Origin: Haloarcula sp. CBA1129
GTDB lineage: Archaea > Halobacteriota > Halobacteria > Halobacteriales > Haloarculaceae
DNA: 64,000 nt
Reading direction: 5' to 3'
NCBI RefSeq assembly: GCF_008729015.1
Contig: NZ_RKSM01000001.1
Span: 496,001 to 560,000 of the forward strand
This document shows, piece by piece, positions 10,735 through 35,395 of the stretch (position 1 is its first letter; every line of letters starts with the position of its first letter). The position numbers were made by a program, and so were the translations under genes. The notes beneath the pieces were generated by a model, which saw nothing but the letters and a program-made list of their open reading frames with translations, did no database searches and was not told where the DNA came from.

Positions 10735-13431
10735 TTATCCGGTGTTTTTCATCCCGGCTGCGATACCTTGAACGGTCAGTCGCAGCGTCCGGCGCTCGGT
10801 TTCCGTCCGGTGGGACTGCTTGAGCAAGCGGACCTGCAACAGGTTCAGCGGATCGACGTACGGGTTCCGGCGCTCAAGGTTCTCCTGCAGCCACTCACGC
10901 GAGAGGAGGCCGTCCTGCCCGGTGATTTCGAGGACCTTCTCGACGGTCTCTTCGTACTCCTCGACGATCCGCGGGTAGATGCGCTCGCGGAGGTCGGGGT
11001 CGGCAAGGTCGGCGTACTCCTCGGCGATTCCGAGGTCGGTACGGGCGAGCGCCAGCGACGCGTTGTCGAGTTTCGTCCGGAAGAACGGCCAGTTCTCGTA
11101 CATCTCCTGCAGCGTTTCCATGTCGCCGCCGTTCTCGAGATAGGCGTCCAGCCCCGTCGAGATGGAGTACCAGCCGGGGATGATACAGCGGGCCTGCGTC
11201 CAAGAGAACACCCACGGGATGGCCCGGAGGTCTTCGACGCTTCGGTCCTCGCTTCGGGAGGCCGGTCGCGAGCCCATGTTGAGGTTCTCGATGACGGTTA
11301 TCGGCGTCGCCTGCTCGAAGAACTCGACGAAGCCGTCGGTCTCAAGCAGGTCTTGGTACTCGTTCCGGGCGGCGTCGGCCGCCGTCTCCATGGCTTCCTC
11401 CCACTCCTCGGGGATCTCCTCGACGGGCTCCTCGATAGCGTTTTTGCGCGCCCGAATCTGGGCGTTGAGCATCTGTTCGAGGTTGCGCTCGGCGATGTCG
11501 TGGTTGGCGTACTTCTCGGCGATGGCCTCGCCCTGCTCGGTGAACTTGATCTGGCCGGTTACCGTCTCGTTTGGCAGGGCCAGCATCGCGTCGTTCATCG
11601 GACCGCCACCGCGGGAGATGGAGCCACCGCGGCCGTGGAACAGGCGCATCTCCACGTCGTAGTCGTCGGTGATGTCTGCCAGTCGCTTCTGGTTGTTGTA
11701 CAGCGACCAGTTGGCGGCGAGGAAGCCGTTCTCCTTGTTCGAGTCGGAGTACCCCAGCATGATCTCCTGAATGTTGTCTCGGGCCTCGAGTGCCTGAGAG
11801 TAGGCTTCGTTCTCGAACAGCGTGCCCATGATGCGGCGAGCCCCGGAGAGTGCGTACTCCGATTCCAGCAGCGGCACCACGTCGAATCCACAGTAGCCGG
11901 GCAGGTCGACGATATCGACTTGGTCAGCGAGGAACAGCACTTCGAGCGCGTGGCTGGGCTCCTCACACCACGAAATAGCGTATGTATCGATGGCGTCGAT
12001 GCCGAACTCGTTTTGCCAGTCGGCGGCCGCACGGAAGCGGTCGAGGACGCGGATGGCGTCCTCCGAAAGGCCCTCGGTGTCTTCCATGTCGATGACAGTG
12101 TTGTCCTGCAGGATCGCTTCGGTCAGGAACTCGACGCGCTCGTCTTCGTCCATCGACGCGTAGTCGATACCCTGCCGGTCGACGGCCTCGGCGATGGCGT
12201 CGGTGTGCATCTTCCGGTGGTCGCGCAGGTCGAGGCTGGCGAGGTTGAAGCCGAAGGTCTCGACCTTGCGGATCAGCGGATCGACGTGGGCCTCGGCGAT
12301 TACCTCGGCGTCGTTTTCTCGGAGACTGTCGGCGATGACACGGAGGTCGGTCAACAGTTCCTCCTCGTTCTCGTAGCCGCCCTGTCGGACGTCACTAACT
12401 CGAATGACGGATTCGCGCATCAGCCGGAGCTTCTGGCGGTACGGTTCGTCCGGATACCGTTCCTCGGCCTCCGTGGCGATGCCGGGGAGTCTGGACTTGT
12501 GACGGTCGAGTCGTTCGTTGAACAGCGCGTCGGTTGCGATGTTCGAGGCGTCCTGACTCAACACGCCGGAGAGTTCCTTGAGCTTGTTTCGGTACAGCGG
12601 CAGCACGGTTTCGCGCTGGCGCTCAAGCGTTTCCTCAGTCACCTCGGTCGTGACGAACGGGTTGCCGTCGCGGTCGGAGCCGGCCCACGAGCGGAATTCG
12701 TAGAGGGTATCGATATCGATGTCCTCGTCGTAGATGTCGTCGAGAGTCGCTTCGAGTTCGTCGTACACCTCGTCGATGACATCGAACAGGACGTTCTCAA
12801 GGTACCACTGGACGTTCAGCGCCTCGTCGGTGACCTCTGGACGGCGGTCCCGGACCTGCGGGGTCTGCCAGAGGCTCGTCACTTCGGCGTCGAGGTCGCG
12901 CTCGATGCGCTTCTGTTCGCGGTCAGTGAGCCGTCGCTCGTCGAGTCGCTCGATGTCACGGGCAACCGACCGGAGCTTCGCCTTCACGGTTTTCCGGCGG
13001 GCTTCGGTGGGATGGGCCGTGAACGTCGGCTGGATGAGCACGTCTTCGAGTACCTGCTCGAACTCCGCGGGGTCTGCGCCACGCTCGGCCAGATCCCGGA
13101 CGGCCTCTTCGACGCTGTCGGCCAGAACACCCTCCTGACTCCCCTCTCGGATTTCTCGGACCCGTTCGCGTTCCTCGGCGAGATTGATGAGTTCGAAATA
13201 CGTGGTAAACGCTCGTGCGACAATATCCTGCGTCTCCGGGTTCAGTCGGTTCAGTGCCCGGTGGACCTCGTCCCGTGTCTCGGTGTCTCCGCGTCGGTAG
13301 TCGATACACGAGTTCCGGATAGTTTCTACTGTTTCGAACGCCTCGGTTGAGGTTTGTGCCTCCAGCACTTCGCCTAGAAGCGCACCCAGCTCCCGTACGT
13401 CTTGGTTTATCTCTCTGGCGTGCAAAGTCAT
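10735..13431 (-). CDS. ppc: Phosphoenolpyruvate carboxylase
   Basis: PPC adds bicarbonate to phosphoenolpyruvate to make oxaloacetate, refilling the citric acid cycle. From the ATG at 13431 (MTLHAREINQDVRELG) the protein has 898 residues, the usual length of the bacterial-type enzyme found in haloarchaea. Catalytic regions are present: TAHPTEARRKTVK near residue 150, LGYSDSNKENG near 570, FHGRGGSISRGGG near 610, and the C-terminal NTG. The normal GYSDSGKDAG is altered here to GYSDSNKENG. The frame stays open upstream to 13527 but those residues are unlike the family. The position beside the glp genes suits growth on glycerol, where anaplerotic carboxylation is needed. Confidence 0.96.
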   Translation of the reverse strand: MTLHAREINQDVRELGALLGEVLEAQTSTEAFETVETIRNSCIDYRRGDTETRDEVHRALNRLNPETQDIVARAFTTYFELINLAEERERVREIREGSQEGVLADSVEEAVRDLAERGADPAEFEQVLEDVLIQPTFTAHPTEARRKTVKAKLRSVARDIERLDERRLTDREQKRIERDLDAEVTSLWQTPQVRDRRPEVTDEALNVQWYLENVLFDVIDEVYDELEATLDDIYDEDIDIDTLYEFRSWAGSDRDGNPFVTTEVTEETLERQRETVLPLYRNKLKELSGVLSQDASNIATDALFNERLDRHKSRLPGIATEAEERYPDEPYRQKLRLMRESVIRVSDVRQGGYENEEELLTDLRVIADSLRENDAEVIAEAHVDPLIRKVETFGFNLASLDLRDHRKMHTDAIAEAVDRQGIDYASMDEDERVEFLTEAILQDNTVIDMEDTEGLSEDAIRVLDRFRAAADWQNEFGIDAIDTYAISWCEEPSHALEVLFLADQVDIVDLPGYCGFDVVPLLESEYALSGARRIMGTLFENEAYSQALEARDNIQEIMLGYSDSNKENGFLAANWSLYNNQKRLADITDDYDVEMRLFHGRGGSISRGGGPMNDAMLALPNETVTGQIKFTEQGEAIAEKYANHDIAERNLEQMLNAQIRARKNAIEEPVEEIPEEWEEAMETAADAARNEYQDLLETDGFVEFFEQATPITVIENLNMGSRPASRSEDRSVEDLRAIPWVFSWTQARCIIPGWYSISTGLDAYLENGGDMETLQEMYENWPFFRTKLDNASLALARTDLGIAEEYADLADPDLRERIYPRIVEEYEETVEKVLEITGQDGLLSREWLQENLERRNPYVDPLNLLQVRLLKQSHRTETERRTLRLTVQGIAAGMKNTG

Positions 13432-30167: not shown

Positions 30168-31391
30168 TCAGGTCGGTTCATCACGTTGCTCCTCGGAGCG
30201 CGGTCCCGGCCACTGTGGTGTTTCGAGGAGGAGGCGGAACGGCCAGATGACGTAGTACAGCGGATGCATTGGACCGGGGAGCGGGCAAAACTGGTACTCC
30301 GAGTAAGTCGGGTGAAGTGAGGAATGTAACAGCAGGAGCGGCACCAGCGCAGTGGCCGAATCGCTGGCAGCCAAGTAAAACCGAGCGGCCTCGAACTGCG
30401 TCGGCGGCTGTGGCGTCCCAGCAGCTAGCGACTCGACGACGGAATCGGCTAATTCGGAGGCGCGGTCGTCCGTGCGAAGGCGGTCCAGTATCGGCGCTGG
30501 GAGAGCATACCCAAAGACAACACGGGCGAGCGCAGCCCCCAGCAGTAGGTTCCGTTCGACGCCAGCTTCACGCGCCCGAGCGAGGACGTGTGACCAGTCC
30601 GTTTCCGTCGACTCAAGCGCCGCAACGAAATCACAGAGCCATTTCAGGAGATACCAGCGGTGCTTGGTTCCGTGAAAGGCCAGCACGAGCAGCCGGTCTG
30701 TTTGTGCAAGCGCCGGAAGCGGTTGGCCACCGACCGAGGCTCTGTCGCGGCGGTCCCAGAGTTCACTGAAGGATGTGGAGAACGGTCGTTCGGCGTCGCC
30801 TACGCGCCAGCGAAGTTCCACATCGAACTCCGGCCCCCGCATCTCGTACTCGTGGACGATGGCTTTCGTCACGGGACCGCCCAGCAGCGCAGCGTCGTCC
30901 AACCGCGGCGTCCCCCCGCGCCACTCGTATCCTCGTTCTTCCAGAACGTCCGCAGCAACGGGGATATCTTCTGGATGAACGAGCAGGTCTAGATCGTTGT
31001 ACTCACGCAGCGTTGCGTCGTCGTAGGCGGCGGCGGACAGCGCTGGTCCTTTGAACGGAATCGCGCGCACCCCGCGTGTCTCGAACCCCTCGACTATTTC
31101 GTGTAGCTCGGTCGTGAACGCGAGATTCCGCATCCGCCTTCCCTGTACTGTGTTGCTAAGTCGTGTCAATACGGCCTCTGGCACGGTAAACTCAGCACCG
31201 CTCTCGCGTGCCATCGCTTCCAGTCCCTCATAGAGGAGTTGTACGACGCCGTGATACCGGGCGAGTTCAACGACGCGGTCCCAGTTTAGCGTGGTATCCA
31301 GTGGGGGAGGGTCAGGGGAAGCGTTGGCGACGGTCGCGGTATGAGCACAGCTGGCCACCACCTGAAGTTCGGGTTCGACCTTTGTCAACAT
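30168..31391 (-). CDS. Nucleotidyltransferase-family protein of the RiPP cluster
   Basis: This 407-aa protein resembles the uncharacterised nucleotidyltransferase family (NTP_transf_5) that travels with lasso-peptide genes. The core reads IPFKGPALSAAAYDDATLRE at about 111-130, followed by YNDLDLLVHPEDIPVAADVL, with paired acidic residues for metal binding. A longer helical region follows and an Arg/Pro-rich tail. Its ATG overlaps the end of the kinase gene by 7 bases, so the two are coupled. In related bacterial clusters such a protein is thought to modify the peptide or act with the kinase. The specific reaction here is unknown. Confidence 0.82.
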   Translation of the reverse strand: MLTKVEPELQVVASCAHTATVANASPDPPPLDTTLNWDRVVELARYHGVVQLLYEGLEAMARESGAEFTVPEAVLTRLSNTVQGRRMRNLAFTTELHEIVEGFETRGVRAIPFKGPALSAAAYDDATLREYNDLDLLVHPEDIPVAADVLEERGYEWRGGTPRLDDAALLGGPVTKAIVHEYEMRGPEFDVELRWRVGDAERPFSTSFSELWDRRDRASVGGQPLPALAQTDRLLVLAFHGTKHRWYLLKWLCDFVAALESTETDWSHVLARAREAGVERNLLLGAALARVVFGYALPAPILDRLRTDDRASELADSVVESLAAGTPQPPTQFEAARFYLAASDSATALVPLLLLHSSLHPTYSEYQFCPLPGPMHPLYYVIWPFRLLLETPQWPGPRSEEQRDEPT

Positions 31392-32299
31392 GAGTCACTA
31401 TCGAGATCAGCCTGAATGCTGGCTGCGACAGCCGGAAGCGTATCGAGATTTCGCGGCCGGCGGAGTCGTCTTATATCTGTCATCTCAACGATCTTCCCGC
31501 AGGCATTGAAATTGGACACAGCTTGGCCGTCGGCTTCTAACGCGCCCAGCGTGTACGTGTTATCGACGAGCGCCATGACCTGCTCGTCCGGTCTGACTGG
31601 TTCCATTGCGATAGATTCGCCGTCTTCGAGCAGGTAGATGCGTTCTAGCGGCACTGGGGTCGCGGGCTGGTCGTGCCTGAGTCCGTAGAAGTGCCGAGGA
31701 CGCCCGCCATGGACCTGTTCTGGTGGTTCGACAGGGGGGTCAAACGCTTCAACCGCCTCCGGATCGAGTTTCATCGAGGGGTAGCCGCTCCGGACGACCG
31801 GCCCCGAATCGCCCAGCGTTATCGCAGCTACGTCGTCGCTCAGGACACGATGTCCGTTGAGCAGGCAGGCCATCGCAGTTGTCGTTTTTCCGACCCCTGA
31901 CTCCCCGACAAACGCCACAGCGCGCCCGTCGATGCTGACGGTACTGGCGTGCAGCACGAAGTAGCCTCGCTGATCCAGCAAGTGGTTCAACGCCGGGCCG
32001 ACCAGTACGTGTCGGAGGACTTCGCTTGGCACGTCCGAGGCCGGGTCTACCGCGATGGACTTCCCGTCGAGAATCCGGACCGTTGCGGCGTCGTATAACA
32101 GGTAGTATTCGCGCTCAGTTACCGCGTGAAAGGTCGAACTGGAGTCAGCCGACAGTGGACAAGGAATCCGCTCCTCAGTGATAGTGATGTCGGCCCGCCC
32201 GTCGGGCTCTGGCTCCGCGAGCGGAAGTTCCGGTACGTCGAAGGCAGAGCGGACCGTCAGCCCGAAGGCTTCATACGTAGCTGTGTTTGCCGTCGCCAT
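31385..32299 (-). CDS. HPr-kinase-like protein, candidate precursor-peptide kinase
   Basis: This protein (304 aa from the ATG at 32299) has a C-terminal P-loop domain of the HPr kinase/phosphorylase type: VGESGVGKTTT at 131-141, preceded by YFVLHAST and followed by HRVLSDDVAAI near 150-160 with an Asp pair. The N-terminal 110 residues, starting TYEAFGLTVRSAFDVPELP, resemble the extension found in lasso-cluster kinases rather than in true HprK. Homologues in paeninodin-type clusters phosphorylate the C-terminal Ser of the precursor, and the precursor encoded just upstream ends in Ser. In-frame starts at 32344 (ATG) and 32356 (GTG) are possible. No HPr gene lies nearby. Confidence 0.82.
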   Translation of the reverse strand: MATANTATYEAFGLTVRSAFDVPELPLAEPEPDGRADITITEERIPCPLSADSSSTFHAVTEREYYLLYDAATVRILDGKSIAVDPASDVPSEVLRHVLVGPALNHLLDQRGYFVLHASTVSIDGRAVAFVGESGVGKTTTAMACLLNGHRVLSDDVAAITLGDSGPVVRSGYPSMKLDPEAVEAFDPPVEPPEQVHGGRPRHFYGLRHDQPATPVPLERIYLLEDGESIAMEPVRPDEQVMALVDNTYTLGALEADGQAVSNFNACGKIVEMTDIRRLRRPRNLDTLPAVAASIQADLDSDSC

Positions 32300-32490
32300 C
32301 CTGCTAGAGTCCACCCTTTGTAGCTGTCCATTGATTCCATCCATGCTGAGACACACCCCGTCGACGACACCCCTGATTCATACCAGACCGCTTGACTGCT
32401 GTGGTGGATAAGAATGCACTCTCTACTCCAACACGCAGGCACGAAACCGGTGCGATGTCTCCACCGAACAGGGAGACTATCGAGTGTCGA

Positions 32491-32532: not shown

Positions 32533-32631
32533 TTAGCTCCACTTCCCGTATCCGTCGTCGTGGTCCCACCAGTTCGTCTTTTCTTCGACAGTTCCGTACG
32601 TTTCGACCGACGGCGTTTCGTATTCCTTCAT
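32533..32631 (-). CDS. Lasso-type RiPP precursor peptide, 32 aa
   Basis: A 33-codon frame begins at the ATG 32629-32631 and ends with TAA at 32533-32535. GAGGTG, matching the anti-Shine-Dalgarno, lies about 9 bases upstream of the ATG. The leader has the lasso-leader pattern: Tyr4, Pro7 (Y-x2-P), Ser8, Val9, Gly13, Val15 and Thr19. If Thr19 is at the usual -2 position, cleavage after Asn20 gives the core WWDHDDGYGKWS. In that frame Asp falls at 3, 5 and 6, not at the ring positions 7-9. A cut one residue earlier puts Asp26 at position 7. The C-terminal residue is Ser, the phosphate acceptor in paeninodin-type systems. The gene sits between the B2 peptidase and the kinase, on the same strand. 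Confidence 0.75.
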   Translation of the reverse strand: MKEYETPSVETYGTVEEKTNWWDHDDGYGKWS

Positions 32632-32670
32632 GGGTTACCCCCACCTCTGGTTTCAGACATCAGTGTATTT

Positions 32671-32677
32671 GTTATAG
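32671..32677 (-). promoter_or_regulatory. TATA-like box for the precursor gene
   Basis: The minus strand reads ACTATAAC in an A/T-rich island 40-46 bases upstream of the precursor ATG. Archaeal spacing predicts a start near 32648 and a leader of about 17 bases that would contain GAGGTG. The precursor could thus be expressed above the level of the B1-B2 genes. Confidence 0.4.
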
Positions 32678-32723: not shown

Positions 32724-33161
32724 TTACCCACGTTCTTCTCGTTCCGTGAGTGTTCGAAACCGTTCAAAGTCGGCGACATCCCCAATAAGGACATCACCGT
32801 TCGACTCGATCCAAGCGTGAGCCTCGAAGGTATCGGATTGCGTATCCACGCCGAAGCGAAGACAATGTGGCAGATCGTTGGCCACCAGCAGTGTGCTACC
32901 AGCGAGTGCTCGGTCGAGACAATCGTAGGTGCCCGGAAGGCGCGATCCCGCTGTCAGAACTGCCCAGCGTACTGACTCTGGTGACCCAGACTGACGATGA
33001 CACGGGAGAGCCTGAGAAATTGTGCCGACATATCGCTCTGCGTCCTCCAGCCCAGCGACTGCAAGCAGTACTTTGCTCGTAGCCATCAGTACCACTGCTT
33101 CACAGAGCAACAGTTTCTGCGCCCGTGACAACGCCCTGAACTCACGGAGTCGAGCTCGCAT
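32724..33161 (-). CDS. Lasso-type leader peptidase B2 (transglutaminase-like)
   Basis: This 145-aa protein of the Transglut_core3 family removes the leader from lasso precursors. The papain-like site is visible: Cys81 in YDCLDRALAGSTLL, His115 in FEAHAWIES and a candidate Asp at 128. The N-terminal helix LREFRALSRAQKLLLCEAVV is the typical start of B2 proteins. The ATG at 33161 overlaps the end of the B1 gene by 20 bases, and an earlier in-frame codon at 33188 is less likely. Length is normal for stand-alone B2 proteins. Together with B1 it forms the usual split protease, where B1 binds the leader and B2 cuts. Confidence 0.88.
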   Translation of the reverse strand: MRARLREFRALSRAQKLLLCEAVVLMATSKVLLAVAGLEDAERYVGTISQALPCHRQSGSPESVRWAVLTAGSRLPGTYDCLDRALAGSTLLVANDLPHCLRFGVDTQSDTFEAHAWIESNGDVLIGDVADFERFRTLTEREERG

Positions 33162-33438
33162 CAACCTTGATGAGTTGCTCCGCGGCAAGCGTGTCCAGAA
33201 ATCGCTTCACGTCAGTCGCCGCTCGGTCGCTGTCGACATCGTACTCTTCGACCAGCGCCGAGACGATGTCGGCTGGCTCCGTCGGTTCCTGAATCCGGTC
33301 CCAGATATCCGGGCCGGCCCCCAACAATCCTTGGTACCGTCCCGTCTTGTTGTTGAGCAGCACGACCTCGCCGTCGATTGTCGTTGTGACACAGTCGTCA
33401 GTTGCGACGACAGCCGATCCGGAATCTATCGCTACCAT
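33142..33438 (-). CDS. PqqD-like leader-recognition protein (lasso B1)
   Basis: This 98-aa PqqD/RRE-type protein should bind the leader of the precursor and present it to B2. It reads SAVVATDDCVTTTIDGEVVLLNNKTGRYQ..., the beta strands of an RRE, then IWDRIQEPTEPADIVSALVEEYDV and a helix, then FLDTLAAEQLIKVD. These are typical of PqqD family proteins in lasso and PqqD-kinase clusters. The ATG at 33438 gives the usual length; an open frame continues to 33495 and a GTG at 33465 is possible. It is the first gene of the minus-strand operon and diverges from the ABC exporter gene. Confidence 0.87.
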   Translation of the reverse strand: MVAIDSGSAVVATDDCVTTTIDGEVVLLNNKTGRYQGLLGAGPDIWDRIQEPTEPADIVSALVEEYDVDSDRAATDVKRFLDTLAAEQLIKVDASSTP

Positions 33439-33586
33439 GCAGATATCGGCGATACTCACATGGTTTGTTATGTCCTCTTTTCGTCGCCGCCACAAGCGTT
33501 ACTGCCGGTAAACGTTCCCTTCGGCCCTGTACTGCCCGACCGTAGTGAGTCGGTAACTATGATTCATAGAACCCGCATCCGGAACA

Positions 33587-35395
33587 ATGACTGATACTCC
33601 CTCCGTTAGTGAGAGATACGCATCATTGCGCCGCGTTGCGCTGTATCGTCCGGGTCTGACGGGGAGTATCGTTGCCGCTAGCCTCTTTGTCATGCTACTG
33701 GAAGGCGTTGGCCTCTCGTTCCTGTTTCCGATACTCGACGCCGCACAGGCGGGGCAAGGTCTCCCGCTTCAGGCGGACGGCGTCACTGGCCAGTTCCTTT
33801 CCGCGTACGCTGCTGCCGGACTGCCGCTCACACTCGAATTCCTGTTGCTCGGCCTCGCCTTTGTGATGGTCGTCCGATTCACGGCGTCGTTTACCGTGAA
33901 ATGGCTCGCAGCGAAGCTCACACAGACATACGAACGCGACCTCAAAAACCGGGCCTACCAACTGGCGATGGGCGCATCGGTCGCCTACTACGACGACAAG
34001 GGGTCTGACGACATCATGAATACGATTCTGACACAGACCCGGTACGCCGGCCGTGTTATCGGCCGTATCATCCAGTTCTTCCAGCAGGGCATCCTCTGTC
34101 TGGTGTACATCGGAATCGCGCTGGCTATCGCACCGATGCTGGCAGTCGGTGCGGCTGTCGCCCTCGGCGGCGTCACGGCGCTCATCAGATACGGCATCGA
34201 ACCCGGGTACGCTGTTGGCGACCGTGTGGCGACGGCAAACGAACAACTGCAGGAGACAACACAAGCTGGGACGCAGGGTATCCGTGAGGTGAAACTGTTC
34301 GGCATGCGCGACGGACTGCGTGCCGAGTTCCGGACCATACTCGACCGCTACACCTCGACCAGTGTCGCTGTTCGCCGGAATCAGGTCGCAATCGGAAGCC
34401 TCTATCGACTCTTCGTCTCGCTACTCTTGTTTGGGCTCGTCTACGTTGCAATCAGTTTCCGAGCGCTGTCCATCGCAGAGTTCGGCGTATTCCTGTTCGC
34501 GATGCTCCGACTCGCGCCCCGACTGAGTTCGCTCAACTCCACCGTTTACGCTATCGAGGGGGAGCTACCACATCTGGTTCGAACCCACCAGTTCATCGAC
34601 CGCCTCGAAACCCAGCAGGAGCCTACTGGCGGGCAGCCAGTCTCCGACCGAATCGAGGAAATCGTGTTTGAGGATGTCTCGTTCGCCTACGAGGACGAGC
34701 CAGTGCTTGCGGACTTCTCGATGACTGCCGAGCGAGGCGAGTTCGTCGGCATTGTCGGTGAGTCCGGTGGTGGTAAATCGACAGTCGTTTCGCTGCTCAC
34801 TCGACTGTATGTGCCAGACAGCGGTGATATTCTGGCGAACGGGACGCCGATTTCGACCTATGCCCTCGACGAGTGGCGTGACGCTGTCGCGATGGTTCGA
34901 CAGGACCCACATATCTTCAACGACACGTTACGGTACAACCTCACAGTCGGTCGGGATATCTCCGAGGAAACGCTCTATGAAGTCGCTAAAAAGGCCCTCG
35001 TCCTCGAATTCCTCGATGACCTCCCACAAGGGCTCGGCACGGTGCTGGGCGATGACGGCGTGAAACTGTCCGGCGGACAGCGCCAGCGGGTCGCACTGGC
35101 CCGCGCACTGCTGATGGATGCAGACATACTCGTGCTCGATGAAGCCACCAGCGACCTCGACTCGAACTTGGAACGGCAAATCCATCGAACAGTCGAGACG
35201 CTTGATGGGGACCAGACTGTGATCGCAATCGCCCACCGACTCTCGACCGTCTCTAACGCCGACCGCATCTACACCGTTGAGGACGGGCAGGTCACAGAAC
35301 AGGGAAGCCACGACGAACTACTCGACAGCGAGGGGACATACGCGGAGTTGTACGCGATGCAGGGAACGGTGGCCACACAGTCTTCCAGTGGCTGA
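33587..35395 (+). CDS. ABC exporter (transmembrane and ATPase domains fused), RiPP export
   Basis: This 602-aa half-transporter of the MsbA/McjD type has about six transmembrane helices in residues 20-310. The nucleotide-binding domain has Walker A GESGGGKST near 392, signature LSGGQRQRVALARAL near 494, Walker B ILVLDEATSDLD and the switch IAHRLST. There is no N-terminal C39 peptidase domain, so leader removal must come from B1/B2. It diverges from the B1 gene with a 148-bp gap. Location and type suggest export of, or immunity to, the peptide product. Similar exporters also occur in polysaccharide clusters, so the substrate is inferred from context. Confidence 0.9.
   Translation: MTDTPSVSERYASLRRVALYRPGLTGSIVAASLFVMLLEGVGLSFLFPILDAAQAGQGLPLQADGVTGQFLSAYAAAGLPLTLEFLLLGLAFVMVVRFTASFTVKWLAAKLTQTYERDLKNRAYQLAMGASVAYYDDKGSDDIMNTILTQTRYAGRVIGRIIQFFQQGILCLVYIGIALAIAPMLAVGAAVALGGVTALIRYGIEPGYAVGDRVATANEQLQETTQAGTQGIREVKLFGMRDGLRAEFRTILDRYTSTSVAVRRNQVAIGSLYRLFVSLLLFGLVYVAISFRALSIAEFGVFLFAMLRLAPRLSSLNSTVYAIEGELPHLVRTHQFIDRLETQQEPTGGQPVSDRIEEIVFEDVSFAYEDEPVLADFSMTAERGEFVGIVGESGGGKSTVVSLLTRLYVPDSGDILANGTPISTYALDEWRDAVAMVRQDPHIFNDTLRYNLTVGRDISEETLYEVAKKALVLEFLDDLPQGLGTVLGDDGVKLSGGQRQRVALARALLMDADILVLDEATSDLDSNLERQIHRTVETLDGDQTVIAIAHRLSTVSNADRIYTVEDGQVTEQGSHDELLDSEGTYAELYAMQGTVATQSSSG

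Follow-up and report, generated by a model that had tools for sequence, protein, structure and literature searches.

A conserved 32-codon gene of Haloarcula probably encodes the precursor of a short secreted peptide, a cyclase-less RiPP that derives from lasso-peptide machinery

We analysed a stretch of 64,000 nucleotides from Haloarcula sp. CBA1129 (the window) and found that a small open reading frame, lying between the genes for a lasso-type leader peptidase (B2) and an HprK-like peptide kinase, is a real, conserved gene tied to this gene set. In our judgement the frame probably encodes the precursor of a short, secreted RiPP that derives from lasso-peptide machinery and is made without a macrolactam cyclase. 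As far as can be read from sequence, the product is probably a short linear peptide, modified by the kinase and secreted, and not a lasso. If this is true, the module by which lasso leaders are recognised and cut operates in archaea in the absence of the ring-forming enzyme, and the presence of B1 and B2 would thus be no proof of a lasso peptide. A concrete precursor of 32 residues is now available from a culturable genus.

Results

The initial annotation had proposed a RiPP precursor with a lasso-type leader in the gap between B2 and kinase, and the frame is found exactly there (Table 1). Its product consists of a leader, MKEYETPSVETYGTVEEKTN, and a predicted core of 12 residues, WWDHDDGYGKWS; Tyr4, Pro7, Gly13, Thr19 and the terminal Ser are all present. 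Eleven of the 32 genomes of the genus carry the precursor, each time with the same cluster. The peptide is 100% identical in nine of them (the window and eight further genomes), the variants being an S32D form in G027 and a 30-residue form, MNYEEPSVETYGTVEEKTNWWHDDGYGKWD, in Haloarcula salina (G004). The spacing of Tyr, Pro, Gly and Thr to which attention had been drawn is borne out, in that Y-x2-P, the Gly and the Thr at -2 are conserved across the genus. Frameshifts or loss of the ATG were sought in relatives that keep B1 and B2, and none was found. The C-terminal Ser fared less well: it is present in the window, but as a conserved feature it gives way to Asp in two of the eleven.

Table 1. 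Features of the cluster in the window (positions counted from the first letter of the stretch)
Feature	Position	Strand	Evidence
NTP_transf_5 nucleotidyltransferase	30168..31391	-	PF14907 E 7e-65
HprK-like peptide kinase	31385..32356	-	HPr kinase profiles below their cutoffs; HPr kinase structures E 3.5e-8
Conserved non-coding block, precursor-kinase gap	32364..32417	-	Alignment of orthologous loci
Precursor gene, 32 aa, ATG...TAA	32533..32631	-	Orthologues in 10 further genomes, purifying selection, leader profile, cluster co-occurrence
Shine-Dalgarno-like stretch of precursor, GAGGTGGGGGTA region	32637..32648	-	Sequence; GG(G/A)GGT kept in most orthologues
TATA-like box TATAACAAATACAC, putative promoter of the precursor's own	32663..32676	-	TATAACAAATAC invariant in 11 loci, flanks vary
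B2 leader peptidase, transglutaminase-like	32724..33188	-	NF033537 E 2.8e-23, PF13471; CLDRAL and AHAWIE motifs
B1, discrete RiPP recognition element (PqqD-like)	33142..33495	-	PF05402; NF033536 below its cutoff
ABC exporter (permease-ATPase, MsbA-like)	33587..35395	+	Divergent; kept in 11/11 genus clusters

Variation within the frame follows a codon pattern. Between the ten close sequences, eight codons differ only at synonymous positions, and a single codon differs by an amino acid replacement, which takes two nucleotide changes. This ratio of eight changes to two gives p about 1e-4 for a neutral synonymous fraction of 0.21, by a simple count that assumes one event per codon variant. In H. 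salina the reading frame is kept through in-frame length changes. A degenerate pattern for TVEEKTNWW had one match each in exactly those 11 of 146 family genomes that carry the cluster; the reversed pattern, used as a control on the same 146 genomes, had zero. When a profile of 32 leaders from other haloarchaeal clusters (precursors of other genomes only) was run against the 357 small ORFs of the window, the precursor came first, at E 9e-5, the runner-up having E 1, and this match, together with the orthologues, supports the call of a lasso-type leader. The NCBI lasso-leader model gives it 15.4 bits for a cutoff of 19, which is presumably why annotation missed the gene. One could still take the frame for a chance ORF whose conservation is that of a regulatory RNA or promoter, given that its DNA is very conserved in the alignment of orthologous loci, many synonymous sites included. 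The codon pattern, the in-frame changes in H. salina and the leader match all argue against such an explanation, as does an Rfam search, which returned no match, and we consider it improbable to the point of being negligible.

The order nucleotidyltransferase-kinase-precursor-B2-B1-ABC is common to all eleven genomes, whose sources include H. amylolytica, H. argentinensis, H. sebkhae, H. vallismortis and H. salina. In each, the block lies in the same place, between an RsmB/RsmF-like methyltransferase gene and a DUF790 gene; because these flanks are constant in all eleven, we count six genes in the cluster. The partner enzymes of the window share 77-93% identity with their counterparts in the other close genomes. 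B2 conserves the Cys and His of its family in the two motifs listed in Table 1, and the kinase retains its P-loop and SDD motif. The closest relatives of B1 in sequence are TbiB1 (5v1u, E 7e-13) and a lasso PqqD family chaperone (9x90, E 3e-9); the kinase and the RRE are assigned to their families by similarity of sequence to HPr kinases and RREs of solved structure. The kinase likely starts at Met20 (32299), because homologues align from about this residue and G009 has a stop upstream. The likely starts of B2 and B1 are the ATGs at 33161 and 33438. A search of the plasmid collection with B2 gave no match.

The other genomes of the genus lack the cluster as a block. In four congeners (L080-L082 and L084), the site between the two flanking genes is empty, and G016 (L083) has a relic at about 11163-12323, where the nucleotidyltransferase is truncated and continues into the final ~57 codons of the ABC gene. 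Patchy presence in the genus (11 of 32) and this real relic are what one would expect of a lasso cluster in decay, its cyclase lost and no product made any longer. However, amino acids are conserved near-perfectly in the face of synonymous drift, the promoter box is invariant, the partner proteins are full length in all eleven genomes and cyclase-less relatives exist in other genera; decay thus appears extremely unlikely.

The TATA-like box that the initial annotation had noted for the precursor holds in every locus compared. The GAGGTG that it had taken for a ribosome binding site does occur at 32643-32648, but the element kept across most orthologues is GG(G/A)GGT, which lies closer to the ATG. 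Between precursor and kinase, a block of 54 nucleotides is strongly conserved in ten genomes and is a possible kinase promoter or regulatory element; it has no match in Rfam.

The sequences give no support to the lasso pathway implied by the initial annotation. The macrolactam cyclase C, an Asn-synthase homologue, is absent: none is encoded in the window, and in all eleven genomes the surroundings of the cluster are free of it. In three genomes that carry the cluster (G018, G027 and G004, all 99% complete), a genome-wide search with haloarchaeal lasso C, which does detect true C where it is present (G094, G008), gave no match at E 1e-5. Only short or partial Asn_synthase matches were seen in these three, and behind some of them stands a 390-residue Asn-synthase protein that occurs in all 32 genomes of the genus, with or without the cluster.

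A canonical lasso peptide would call for a cyclase encoded elsewhere in the genome and acting in trans. In its favour, B1, B2 and the leader all belong to the lasso type, and full-length Asn-synthase proteins are encoded on C1 and C3 of the window's genome. These proteins, however, start with MCGI like ordinary glutamine-dependent AsnB, and one adjoins a glycosyltransferase. G018, G027 and G004 keep the cluster without any full-length homologue, and on these grounds C acting in trans was rejected. Furthermore, if the cut falls at T-N|W, the 12-residue core has Asp at 3, 5 and 6 only and no Asp/Glu at 7-9, the positions of the ring acid (PMC9266682); by itself this is a weak test, since under the same cut rule an acid stands at 7-9 in only 15 of 32 cores from clusters having C. 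Taken together, these data make a canonical lasso very unlikely. A non-homologous cyclase may be encoded elsewhere in the genome. We also considered a lasso cut after T14-V15, which would leave a core, EEKTNWWDHDDGYGKWS, with an acid at 8. This was rejected because the leaders of haloarchaeal C clusters keep their -2 Thr at Tyr+15, that is T19, and because here, too, there is no C.

Clusters without C and with the same leader were found in G039, in G143 (a Halobacteriales MAG), in G386 and, twice, in G390; lasso C searches of these four genomes gave weak partial matches or none. The predicted cores include SMDDGGYGDNNYNEQS, DHHYDNAV, DEHYGHDEEY and WGRRRRWGGGWKYNRS, in addition to array cores built around GSEP. 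The array lies in G390 (L049, 8700-12450), where eight precursor units, six intact and two decayed, combine a constant leader with diversified cores of 8-12 residues; it adjoins a cyclase-less B2-B1-ABC-NTP-kinase cluster. Haloarchaeal clusters with C (L043, L051 and L059, for example) have homologous B1, B2 and kinase, usually with NTP transferase and ABC genes, and their leader and -2 Thr spacing is the same. They differ in having one or two C genes, in their cores, mostly of 22-32 residues, and in standing apart from the cyclase-less group in the kinase and B2 trees. Core length has a median of 12 residues in the cyclase-less clusters (8-16 in the related ones) versus 26 in clusters with C. 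Of the eleven cyclase-less rows, ten fall into one group in both trees, with moderate support (86/53 for the kinase, 94/87 for B2); the B1 tree is less resolved. A single origin of the cyclase-less group is likely. G441 (L064) has a cyclase-less cluster outside the main group, with odd Gly-rich cores, and is possibly a separate case.

The distribution of acceptor residues bears on the role of the kinase, which is kept in both genomes whose precursor ends in Asp. Altogether, the predicted core lacks both Ser and Thr in four members that keep the kinase: G027, H. salina, L040 (DHHYDNAV) and L047 (DEHYGHDEEY). Ser phosphorylation therefore cannot be the whole story, and, on the sequences compared, the terminal Ser is not essential. 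The most widespread hydroxyl is that of Tyr, found in 15 of the 16 cyclase-less cores listed, the exception being the array core VKIIGSEPF. A tree drawn for the ancestral C-terminal residue gives no order between Asp and Ser. These natural Ser-to-Asp variants make the real target of the kinase directly testable.

Discussion

By analogy with related systems, we infer the cleavage site, modification, export and linearity of the product as follows. The B1 RRE would bind the YxxPxV part of the leader, and B2, through its Cys/His pair, would cleave between Asn20 and Trp21, placing Thr19 at -2. The kinase may then put one or more phosphates on a hydroxyl of the peptide, the candidate acceptor being the C-terminal Ser in most species and another residue or group where this Ser is missing. 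Homology further suggests that the NTP_transf_5 enzyme decorates the phosphate and that the ABC protein exports the product, which would stay linear because there is no macrolactam cyclase.

Some of these steps have precedents. The C-terminal Ser of paeninodin is a substrate of HprK kinases, and in pseudomycoidin the phosphate receives a hexose from a nucleotidyltransferase (PMC8498205). Like these phosphorylated lassos, the archaeal cluster has B1, B2, an HprK-like kinase, a nucleotidyltransferase, an ABC exporter and, in most species, a precursor ending in Ser; recognition of its YxxP leader by B1 is predicted from motif and spacing. Unlike them, it has no C, its core is short and without a ring acceptor, its terminal Ser is not conserved, and its leader motif is YxxP where paeninodin leaders have WxxP.

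The nearest described system is that of the Linear Polyphosphorylated Peptides (LPP) of Bacillota, reported in 2026, in which cyclase-less clusters yield phosphorylated linear peptides (PMC13381572). A discrete RRE, an HprK-like kinase, an NTP transferase, an MsbA-like exporter, a YxxP leader and the absence of a macrolactam cyclase are common to both. The differences lie in leader removal, core and leader. LPP leaders are removed by a SipW-like signal peptidase; the archaeal six-gene cluster lacks a SipW-like SpI and has the lasso protease B2 instead. The core is of 45 residues in the LPP case studied, as against 8-16 in the archaeal cyclase-less clusters. The LPP leader motif, YxxPxVLxHQxIxFETxxS, is missing from the archaeal precursor, which has YETPSVETYGTVEEKTN, of lasso type with a Thr at -2.

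A 2023 genome report on Haloarcula hispanica Boch-26 lists, from antiSMASH, an RRE-containing biosynthetic gene cluster with B1, B2 and kinase (PMC10093198), very likely of the same kind as the one described here. That report does not seem to name a precursor or to discuss the missing cyclase. Our literature search, which left preprints and most subscription journals outside its coverage, turned up no description of a B2-dependent cyclase-less group in archaea.

One could also envision that the peptide is the source of a small molecule or of some otherwise modified product, in the manner of PQQ, and that the kinase targets not Ser but a Tyr, the C-terminal carboxylate or the side chain of an Asp. 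Retention of the kinase where the predicted core has no Ser or Thr, the prevalence of Tyr and a core as invariant in nine genomes as befits a fixed functional molecule would all fit. However, no radical-SAM or redox enzyme is present in the six-gene cluster, one array core is devoid of Tyr, and Ser is the target of known HprK-type peptide kinases (PMC8498205, PMC13381572). We regard a PQQ-like product as unlikely. Returning to the kinase-modified linear peptide, the unchanged core suggests a fixed, conserved role and not an arms race. It is tempting to go further and speculate that these clusters form an archaeal class of their own, of linear RiPPs processed by B2 and with a kinase target other than Ser, in which the invariant Haloarcula core is a shared extracellular signal or a metal/cofactor peptide and not an antibiotic. 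This extension is, in our estimate, rather doubtful.

Kinases of the same type occur in other settings. In G226 (L060, 7287-8423), an HprK-like kinase directly follows an ORF that has a lasso leader and a tail rich in W, D, G and H (WDDDGWDWGWGDDDHDDWDWGWG...), and no B1, B2 or C was found within the 16-kb stretch. Three haloarchaeal clusters that contain C (L050, L052 and L062) encode several HprK-like kinases, two or three each, and precursors of more than one kind, examples from L050 being GNHFSAVDGNSG... and QNKIGSGEDEY...
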